Shown: one piece after another, positions 670-5,204 of the stretch | Layout of the letters: every line of letters starts with the position of its first letter | How positions within the stretch are numbered: the stretch's first letter is position 1 | Virus record (IMG/VR): IMGVR_UViG_3300025120_000464 | Location: 1 to 26,218 of that record | Source of the DNA: a virus | Direction: 5' to 3' (one strand) | DNA length: 26,218 bases | The notes under the pieces: generated by a model | The model's database searches: none | What the model saw: only the letters and a program-made list of their open reading frames with translations | Told to the model about the DNA's origin: nothing | Translations under genes and position numbers: made by a program

Positions 670-770
670 GGTTAACTGACGAGGATTCTATATCCGAAAC
701 TATCAAGCGAAACGGAAACGTCATAGAGTGCAATGGCGTGGGCATAAGTAGTAGCTTGATAGTCTTAACC
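670..770 (+). ncRNA. Type I hammerhead ribozyme with enlarged stem III (HH1)
   Basis: Every conserved hammerhead element is present. Stem I is GGTTAA (670-675) with TTAACC (765-770). The core CTGACGA is at 676-682. Stem II is GGAT/ATCC (683-686, 692-695) closing a TCTAT loop, followed by GAAA at 696-699. Stem III is a perfect 9-bp helix, 700-708 with 754-762, continued by the A699-T763 pair. C764 is the cleavage-site nucleotide, so the predicted cut is between 764 and 765. Stem III carries 45 extra nucleotides, which form a further 7-bp hairpin (718-724 with 733-739, one G-U). Next to stem III, GAA (709-711) faces AGTA (750-753), the signature of a loop-E/sarcin-ricin motif. The 3' product would start 25 nt before the gene at 790. 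Stem I is short and no stem I-loop II contact is obvious, so the rate is unknown. Confidence 0.88.
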
Positions 771-789
771 AACACAATAGGTATATAAA

Positions 790-1077
790 ATGATAGAAAA
801 CGAAAAATACATAACTCATGAAGGTAAACGCACTAATAAATCTAATTTAAAACTGTTGTATTCAATGAATGACAACGGCAGTGATGTTGAAATATTAGTT
901 AGTTATTGTACGCCTGTAGCATATGCTATTGACGGCTTATGGCATTACACGTCTACTAAATATAGTCCAACAACTAGTAAACAAATCACGAGATTTTTGA
1001 ACGCAAAAACTGGTGGACGTGGCAACGCTTTAGAGGTGAAACAGGAAGAAATAGAAAAAATATACAAAAACGTATAA
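790..1077 (+). CDS. Small early protein, DUF8033-like
   Basis: A 95-residue protein and the first gene downstream of hammerhead HH1, whose cleavage would leave a 25-nt leader. The segment around residues 37-66 (SYCTPVAYAIDG, then YSPTTSKQITRFL) resembles small phage proteins of the DUF8033 type, in which a TPVA segment is followed by a TTSKHI-like segment. That resemblance is from memory and moderate. No enzyme motif, signal peptide or membrane segment is visible. The upstream sequence (AATAGGTATATAAA) has only a weak ribosome binding site, so the start is chosen because it is the first ATG of the open frame. It is probably an early host-interaction protein, but the function is unknown. Confidence 0.72.
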   Translation: MIENEKYITHEGKRTNKSNLKLLYSMNDNGSDVEILVSYCTPVAYAIDGLWHYTSTKYSPTTSKQITRFLNAKTGGRGNALEVKQEEIEKIYKNV

Positions 1078-3312: not shown

Positions 3313-3387
3313 ATGTTATATGTTATGCTAGGCTGTTTAGTGGGGATGCTAATGGTAGTGCCATTCATGGAATGGATAAAGAGATAG
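3313..3387 (+). CDS. Possible 24-residue single-span membrane peptide
   Basis: A short frame from ATG 3313 encodes a hydrophobic peptide (MLYVMLGCLVGMLMVVPFMEW followed by a basic IKR end) that looks like one membrane helix with a positive C terminus. The ribosome binding site is weak (GAAGTAGAAC). Its TAG stop ends at 3387, which is the first base of hammerhead HH2 stem I. A competing 31-codon frame from ATG 3297 overlaps the previous stop, has no ribosome binding site and encodes an unremarkable peptide, so I prefer the membrane peptide. Reality is uncertain because it is so short. Confidence 0.35.
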   Translation: MLYVMLGCLVGMLMVVPFMEWIKR

Positions 3388-3436
3388 GTTAACTGACGAG
3401 GATTCTATATCCGAAACGCCGTGAGGCGTCTTAACC
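3387..3436 (+). ncRNA. Minimal type I hammerhead ribozyme (HH2)
   Basis: Stem I is GGTTAA (3387-3392) with TTAACC (3431-3436). The core CTGACGA is at 3393-3399. Stem II is GGAT/ATCC with a TCTAT loop (3400-3412), and GAAA is at 3413-3416. Stem III is ACGCC/GGCGT closed by a GTGA (GNRA) tetraloop (3416-3429). C3430 is the nucleotide before the predicted cut, between 3430 and 3431. All core positions match the consensus. The 3' product would begin 25 nt before the gene at 3456 and keeps the GAGGA ribosome binding site. Stem I and stem II are identical to those of HH1. Confidence 0.93.
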
Positions 3437-3455
3437 AATACACACGAGGAAGATT

Positions 3456-3653
3456 ATGAAACTAGATATAAACACGGTGGACGCTGAAGTACTGCTTTAT
3501 GCACTTAATTACTTAGAATCGTCTGACTTAGTCGACAGACCTAGACATGGCTCATTCATGGAAGGTAAACAACAACTACTCAGTGAATTAAGTAATAATG
3601 TTATGGACGCAATACGTAGGGCTAAGGACACTAAAGCTTCACCAATAAATTAA
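3456..3653 (+). CDS. Small early protein, first of a tandem paralogous pair
   Basis: A 65-residue protein that I do not recognise, read from ATG 3456 behind ACACGAGGAAG. It directly follows ribozyme HH2, whose cleavage would leave a 25-nt leader. Its N-terminal half (MKLDINTVDAEVLLYALNYLESS) aligns with the next gene (MKIELTIVEADIIVYALSHVNDS), so the two are tandem duplicates that have diverged. The C-terminal half looks helical. The stop codon TAA (3651-3653) is part of a 21-bp repeat of the leader that lies downstream of HH2. Function unknown. Confidence 0.68.
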   Translation: MKLDINTVDAEVLLYALNYLESSDLVDRPRHGSFMEGKQQLLSELSNNVMDAIRRAKDTKASPIN

Positions 3654-3670
3654 CCAATACACACGAGGAA
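3650..3670 (+). repeat. Second copy of the post-ribozyme leader, 21-bp direct repeat
   Basis: Bases 3650-3670 are identical to 3431-3451 (TTAACCAATACACACGAGGA plus A). The first copy starts exactly at the predicted HH2 cleavage site and carries the ribosome binding site of the gene at 3456. The second copy carries that of the paralogue at 3676 but has no ribozyme before it. The duplicated unit is therefore leader plus gene, without the ribozyme. Confidence 0.9.
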
Positions 3671-3675
3671 ACTAA

Positions 3676-3852
3676 ATGAAAATTGAACTAACAATAGTTG
3701 AAGCAGATATAATAGTCTATGCTCTAAGCCATGTAAATGATTCGCATGATAATGGTGAACTTAAAAGCTCATATATATCAGCTCATAAAAACACTTTAGA
3801 GGGTTTGACTAGGCATGTTTATGAAACGCTAAAAAATGAAATACACGAGTGA
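3676..3852 (+). CDS. Small early protein, second of a tandem paralogous pair
   Basis: A 58-residue protein from ATG 3676 behind CGAGGAAACTAA. It shares the pattern MK-hydrophobic, T-V-x-A-(D/E), YAL and then a serine-containing turn with the upstream product, and diverges in the C-terminal half (SAHKNTLEGLTRHVYETLKN, probably helical). Its stop overlaps the GTG start at 3849 by four bases. Function unknown; the duplication suggests dosage or diversification of a host-directed activity, which is only inference. Confidence 0.62.
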   Translation: MKIELTIVEADIIVYALSHVNDSHDNGELKSSYISAHKNTLEGLTRHVYETLKNEIHE

Positions 3853-4860: not shown

Positions 4861-4929
4861 ATGACAGTAGTAGTATGGGATGCTATCGCAGAGTTAAGGG
4901 CTCAATACAGTAGATACGACCTAACCTAG
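4861..4929 (+). CDS. Possible 22-residue leader peptide before ribozyme HH3
   Basis: A very short frame starting at ATG 4861 behind a strong AGGAGGATAACA ribosome binding site. The peptide (MTVVVWDAIAELRAQY followed by SRYDLT) looks like a short amphipathic helix. Its TAG stop (4927-4929) ends on the first base of HH3 stem I, the same arrangement as at HH2. The strong start signal argues that it is translated. It could be a functional peptide, or a way to bring ribosomes up to the ribozyme and so affect its folding. Confidence 0.45.
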   Translation: MTVVVWDAIAELRAQYSRYDLT

Positions 4930-4978
4930 TTATACTGATGAGGATTCTATATCCGAAACGCCGTGAGGCGTCTATAAC
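4929..4978 (+). ncRNA. Minimal type I hammerhead ribozyme (HH3)
   Basis: Stem I is GTTATA (4929-4934) with TATAAC (4973-4978). The core CTGATGA is at 4935-4941. Stem II is GGAT/ATCC with a TCTAT loop (4942-4954), and GAAA is at 4955-4958. Stem III is ACGCC/GGCGT closed by GTGA (4958-4971). C4972 precedes the predicted cut, between 4972 and 4973. Stem I differs from HH1 and HH2 on both strands yet remains perfectly paired, which is strong evidence that the fold is under selection. The 3' product keeps the AGAGGAAA ribosome binding site of the gene at 4995. Confidence 0.93.
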
Positions 4979-4994
4979 AACAAGAGGAAAACAA

Positions 4995-5204
4995 ATGGAT
5001 AAAGATAAAGAACAGTGTAGTTATTCCAATGGAATAATGACAGACAAAAAGTTTATAGAAGAAGTCTTTGAGATTGCGTGTGGTGATGGAGCAAGATGCG
5101 TGAAGTGGGCAACAGGACAACCAAGAGAGTTTACTAAAGAAGAAGTATTGGAAAGGCTAATGGAGTTTAGCGACAATGCTTTGAAGTGGGAAGAAGGAGA
5201 ATAG
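4995..5204 (+). CDS. Small acidic early protein of unknown function
   Basis: A 69-residue protein starting at ATG 4995 behind AAGAGGAAAAC, directly downstream of HH3. The frame extends upstream through the ribozyme, but translation from there is unlikely. The N terminus is charged (DKDKEQCSYSN), followed by a helical body (KKFIEEVFEIACGDG, then FTKEEVLERLMEFSDNALKWEEG). Three cysteines are present without a zinc-binding spacing. No family recognised. HH3 cleavage would give this gene its own 22-nt leader. Confidence 0.65.
   Translation: MDKDKEQCSYSNGIMTDKKFIEEVFEIACGDGARCVKWATGQPREFTKEEVLERLMEFSDNALKWEEGE

Follow-up and report, generated by a model that had tools for sequence, protein, structure and literature searches.

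Hammerhead motifs in the analysed genome fragment

The window, i.e., the whole stretch of DNA that was analysed, is a virus record of 26,218 bases that carries three hammerhead motifs, designated here HH1, HH2, and HH3. Its genes include an ArdC-like anti-restriction gene, recombination genes of the ERF and YqaJ types, and genes for virion proteins. The three motifs are set in an early-gene operon of a tailed-phage genome fragment. HH3 lies between the stop codon of a 22-aa open reading frame (ORF) and the ribosome-binding site of a 69-aa gene (Table 1).

Table 1. Features of the three hammerhead loci in the window
Feature	Position	Strand	Details	Basis
HH1	670..770	+	type I; 10-bp stem III with large loop; predicted cleavage 764/765	motif finder, folding
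Gene downstream of HH1	790..1077	+	95 aa, phrog_5643	sequence, phrog match
HH2	3387..3436	+	type I; stem I GGTTAA/TTAACC; predicted cleavage 3430/3431	motif finder, RNA folding
Gene downstream of HH2	3456..3653	+	65 aa; Shine-Dalgarno-like GAGG at 3446-3449	sequence
ORF upstream of HH3	4861..4929	+	22 aa; TAG stop at 4927-4929 overlaps stem I	ORF list
HH3	4929-4978	+	type I	motif and three helices read from sequence
HH3 stem I, 5' arm	4929..4934	+	GTTATA; its first G also ends the TAG stop of the 22-aa ORF	
HH3 catalytic core	4935..4941	+	CTGATGA (C3-A9, N7 = T)	sequence
HH3 stem II	4942..4954	+	GGAT/ATCC, loop TCTAT	motif finder, RNA folding
HH3 core GAA	4955..4957	+	G12 A13 A14	sequence
HH3 stem III	4958..4971	+	ACGCC/GGCGT, GTGA loop	motif finder, RNA folding
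HH3 C17	4972	+	predicted cleavage 4972/4973	sequence, known hammerhead mechanism
HH3 stem I, 3' arm	4973..4978	+	TATAAC; would-be 5' end of the downstream mRNA	sequence, motif finder
Predicted post-cleavage leader of HH3	4973..4994	+	22 nt; Shine-Dalgarno-like GAGGAA at 4984-4989	sequence
Gene downstream of HH3	4995..5204	+	69 aa; homologues in 30 viral contigs	homology search

HH3 has the core of a type I hammerhead: CTGATGA, GAA, the A15.1-U16.1 pair (A-T in the DNA), and C as H17. Its stems I, II, and III comprise 6, 4, and 5 bp, respectively, and stem I is open. Loop II (UCUAU) corresponds only partly to the family consensus UNAWU, having T at position 3, where A is usual. The motif lies far above chance: the finder, run for three topologies, gave three matches in the window and one match in a set of 100 randomized versions of the complete window with dinucleotide content preserved. 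The hammerhead is the minimum-energy structure for all three copies in RNA folding. The fold energy by itself is unexceptional (HH2 and HH3 both have a z of about -1.5); the case for hammerheads rests on the motif and on comparison with relatives. Judged by these, HH1, HH2, and HH3 are genuine type I hammerhead ribozymes with predicted cleavage sites.

The original prediction described stem I of HH3 as compensated with respect to HH1, whose stem I is the same as that of HH2, and this is what we observe. Three of the six pairs differ, each on both strands (G-C to T-A, T-A to A-T, and A-T to T-A), and all six are kept. It was also correct that the core differs only at N7, being CTGACGA in HH1 and HH2 and CTGATGA in HH3. 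Stems II and III of HH2 are identical to those of HH3. The three copies alone do not prove compensation within a single lineage, because they may be separate acquisitions; such compensation is directly demonstrated by orthologous pairs on other contigs (see below).

Two leaders in the window are repeated. At 3650-3675, TTAACCAATACACACGAGGAA is the exact predicted post-cleavage leader of HH2, with the rest of the ribozyme absent. This copy precedes a paralogous gene with its ATG at 3676 and looks like a tandem gene duplication minus the catalytic part. No relatives of the gene that follows HH2 could be confirmed in a search. Another leader, consisting of a hairpin like CATAGCATTTAAGCTATG and then ATCAACAACTTA, occurs before early genes at 620-665, 1115-1150, and 1390-1425, and HH1 is inserted directly after one copy of it. 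A terminator-like hairpin is located at 1367-1386.

Collection of relatives

Relatives were collected with DNA search patterns that fixed stem II or stem III and always left stem I free. Each of two patterns matched more than 100 viral contigs among the matches listed. The relatives come from hundreds of phage and prophage contigs, and one pattern matched bacterial assemblies as well: nine type I copies lie at 534-4571 of L335, a 5.8 kb contig binned as Aliivibrio, and a Saccharothrix contig has seven type II copies. The true host of L335 may differ from its bin, because its downstream leaders have no clear Shine-Dalgarno sequence. Hammerheads were also found in the cultured phages HTVC019P, HTVC109P, HTVC031P, Eistla, and MEP301 and in Flavobacterium elemo phages; HTVC031P contains types I, II, and III inside 9 kb.

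In the virus and phage records that were searched whole, all core-pattern matches are on one strand, and control reads gave none. The finder gave no ribozymes in 80 loci of tail-protein relatives, most of which lack early regions. The counts of type III elements (27 raw matches, and 22 in another scan) are upper bounds, because some type III calls with loops longer than 100 nt are spurious overlaps of type I. A GC-rich group (L162 and L165) has a stem I of only 3-4 bp (taaCCCC ... GGGa).

Pairing and covariation in stem I

Among 323 distinct elements selected with no condition on stem I (several matches in coding sequences are chance ones), 278 have a stem I of at least 5 bp, and in 263 it is exactly 6 bp. 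When arms were randomly dealt among the 323 elements, far fewer stems I were paired.

The original prediction proposed a covariation test with R-scape and interpreted the compensated stem as a sign of selection on the ribozyme fold. We applied an R-scape-like procedure with a tree-based null to 294 elements (270 distinct composites) filtered on stems II and III only. The finder itself imposes some conditions on stems II and III and none on stem I. For the 270 distinct elements, 1081 column pairs were ranked; each of the best 12 belongs to a true helix, and stem I pairs 1-5 are among them. These five pairs score above every null alignment (APC 275-456, as against at most 200 in the null). The APC of pair 6, which is mostly G-C, is 114, within the range of null maxima.

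A diverged set of 84 representatives with less than 80% identity gave the same picture. In register, 461 of the 504 stem I cells are paired (92%), and all six pairs are present in 63 of the 84 representatives. With one arm slid, 143-190 cells pair (28-38%); with arms re-dealt, the mean is 249 and the maximum 278.

We also compared 73 pairs of elements that precede homologous genes on different contigs. They show 46 both-sided stem I changes with pairing kept and five G-U changes, and 28 cells were scored as broken. In the cases inspected, the broken cells have two sources. One is a parsing error in a single element, L234, which actually has an intact stem I (GTTACA/TGTAAC); the other is a naturally short stem I of 3-5 bp in L122, L181, and L099. 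Among the inspected cases of these 73 pairs, there is no clear example of a homologue with a mismatched stem I and the rest conserved, which was the observation named beforehand as contradicting selection. A clean compensated pair of orthologues is formed by L112 (GTTATA/TATAAC) and L166 (GTTACA/TGTAAC), which have the same stem III and the same downstream gene; the GTTATA stem of L112 is that of HH3 itself. The helices of the type I family are therefore kept through compensatory change across homologues. Stem I covariation and in-register pairing, together with the constancy of the core described below, support selection on the ribozyme fold.

We considered whether stem I, the future mRNA 5' end, is alike within a genome beyond what is seen for stems II and III, and rejected this: its excess identity is 0.19-0.20, as compared with 0.18 for stem III and a lower value of 0.12 for stem II. 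Seven contigs (L094, L172, L239, L269, L293, L315, and L318) have one stem I shared by their type I copies, with differing stems II and III. Their excess over between-genome identity is not clearly above that of stem III.

Catalytic core and loop II

The core was assessed in elements with three intact stems, with changes allowed at up to about four core positions. It is perfect in 244 full-fold elements, and four further elements are real variants: U4C in L196 and L243, and C3U with G8A in two elements of L226. The double variant retains the 3-8 base pair. Both classes belong to natural variants with activity that were described in 2011 (PMC3088659). Two other full-fold matches, four core changes away, look like chance. 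Among the elements outside both search patterns, there are 113 perfect cores, one single-change variant, and two double-change variants; two four-change matches are again chance-like.

The elements outside both patterns have loop II UNAWU with a closing G-C pair (90%), A at -1 (94%), and A at +1 (86%). We infer from the conservation of UNAWU and the flanking A residues that loop II and stem I may form a tertiary contact.

Position relative to genes

An ORF start, as defined by a simple ORF scan and not by curated genes, is located at most 80 nt downstream of 95% of 278 type I elements. The corresponding value is 42% when same-strand positions are drawn at random and 21% when the opposite strand is read at the element's own site. 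The distance from the predicted cleavage site to the ATG has a median of 25 nt (5th-95th percentile 19-40). A simple scan detected a plain Shine-Dalgarno sequence ahead of the following ATG in only about half of the elements. The densest locus has 13 copies across 11 kb.

Gain, loss and exchange

The contig L320, which is 93-97% identical to the window over neighbouring early genes, is without HH1 and has ATTAATACTTATGGAGATATAAAATG at the site. The gene downstream of HH1 is preceded by a type I ribozyme in the window; its homologue has a type III one in L003 and none in L320. HH1 also has a counterpart with 96% identity across 112 nt on a contig that encodes a T7-like RNA polymerase, where the gene behind it is a different one. 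No ribozyme was found upstream of any of the 30 homologues of the gene downstream of HH3, and a search of twelve related contigs with the hammerhead core pattern gave no match.

Since the relatives, the homologues, and the empty HH1 site are without ribozymes, cleavage is not essential to these genes. The variable presence among relatives and the identity of HH1 to an element elsewhere imply that the ribozymes are gained and lost with early-gene cassettes. In this lineage the hammerheads are accessory, and locus-specific conservation is absent.

Comparison with known systems

HH3 adds to a known group, since clusters of hammerheads of all types in phages and prophages were already described by Perreault et al. 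in 2011, with a proposed role in transcript processing (PMC3088659). Tandem phage hammerheads were shown to cleave in vitro, and one set did so in E. coli (PMC3088659). Like those clusters, the window has more than one hammerhead next to the genes of a single phage genome, with three copies in 26 kb. The likeness extends to the core and the helices, to the occurrence of all three topologies and of multiple copies in the spaces between phage genes, and to the suggested outcome, in which a long phage transcript is divided into gene-length mRNAs. In contrast to the 2011 study, start-codon placement, covariation, and core constancy rest here on counts from hundreds of elements. Further differences of the present type I set are a 6-bp stem I flanked on both sides by a conserved A, a UNAWU loop II, scores mostly below the Rfam thresholds, and members in cultured Pelagibacter, OM43, and Flavobacterium phages.

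HHphage, the hammerhead of the haloviruses HF1 and HF2, is separated from a start codon by 13 nt, and a mapped RNA 5' end is at most 3 nt from the cleavage site (PMC3088659). This variant resembles HH3 in being upstream of an early gene start, but it has a variant core and an archaeal host, whereas the core of HH3 is standard. Theta ribozymes of gut phages are likewise small self-cleaving RNAs spread across tailed phages with a proposed function in RNA processing; unlike the elements considered here, they have an HDV-like fold and are located at tRNA 3' ends, not before start codons (PMC10879173).

A search of the whole window with Rfam 15 gave nothing, and HH1-HH3 were not called. Small-window searches gave only sub-threshold matches, including one to an irrelevant CRISPR repeat model. 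The best Rfam hammerhead match of HH3 is RAGATH-1-hammerhead (RF03152), at 15.7 bits. This is far under the gathering score of 56.3, and the model differs in its extra upstream hairpin and 5-bp stem I; several family members, for which it is likewise the best hammerhead model in Rfam, score about 24-31 bits against it. Hammerhead_1 (RF00163) shares the type I topology, and the L335 copies reach 25-27 bits against it, under the gathering score of 34; HH3 has no match to it even at an E-value of 10. The sampled elements are thus largely invisible to Rfam.

The role of hammerheads in bacteria and phages has been described as an open question (PMC6155905), and a search of the literature collection used here for papers on pelagiphages with hammerheads gave none that was relevant. 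What is added here is the quantified selection on stem I and the core, the tight start-codon placement, and the cultured phages available for testing. These carriers, with one to several copies each, include HTVC031P, HTVC109P, Eistla, the Flavobacterium elemo phages, and MEP301.

Possible role of the hammerheads

Hammerhead ribozymes cleave themselves after H17. By this chemistry, a transcribed HH3 RNA would cut itself after C17. The upstream RNA would be left with a folded end and a 2',3'-cyclic phosphate, and the mRNA of the downstream gene would begin with a 5'-OH and have a leader of about 22 nt that includes the Shine-Dalgarno site. Polycistronic phage RNA would in this way be split just ahead of each ribosome-binding site. 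The likely benefit is that each unit could have its own translation and its own decay; one possible reason is that 5'-end-dependent decay acts poorly on a 5'-OH end. Processing of polycistronic phage RNA by the predicted self-cleavage is the best explanation of the data and, in our opinion, a probable one. The placement statistics point to one role, which is testable in infected cells.

A broader proposal is more tentative, and we hold it with some doubt: in hammerhead arrays, tailed phages could have a general RNA-processing system, gained again and again, by which the 5' ends of many early-gene mRNAs are set. The selected trait would be the cut about 25 nt before the start codon and not the RNA shape, because all three types (I, II, and III) are used in the same kind of place and can replace one another at homologous genes, as in the case of HH1 and its type III counterpart.

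The main rival of RNA processing is cassette recombination or mobility, which may also hold alongside it. Active ribozymes would then serve the mobility of gene cassettes, as recombination junctions or as a selfish insert before start codons, and mRNA processing would be a side effect. The empty HH1 site, the differing presence among close relatives, the HH1-like element in front of a different gene, and the near-identical ribozymes of L243 and L299 that precede different genes all agree with this. However, most copies within one genome differ in stems II and III, unlike fresh insert copies, and three circular permutations occupy one kind of place. A non-systematic look revealed no target-site duplications or encoded enzyme. 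On balance we regard mobility as an unlikely primary function.

The elements might instead be folded boundaries of mRNAs (decay blockers or binding sites) in which catalysis is no longer relevant, as their stable hairpins at gene boundaries would allow. A purely structural element needs no CUGANGA, GAA, or H17, yet the core is almost always kept in full-fold elements and its variants are known catalytically tolerated ones, which makes this explanation highly improbable. Chance resemblance or a decaying DNA repeat, suggested by the exactly matching stems II and III of HH2 and HH3 and by the ribozyme-less half copy of the HH2 leader near 3650-3670, can practically be dismissed in view of the shuffling result, the stem I covariation and core constancy in relatives, and orthologous compensated pairs before the same gene such as L112 and L166.

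Additional observations in carrier genomes

In L355, L357, and L087, a motif ACTAGACGGCG/ACTAGACGGTG is found close to several pelagiphage hammerheads; it is possibly a promoter of a phage RNA polymerase. In two elemo phages (L354, 5968-6075, and L400, 27432-27539), a hypothetical gene is annotated on the opposite strand over the hammerhead, and this gene is probably spurious.
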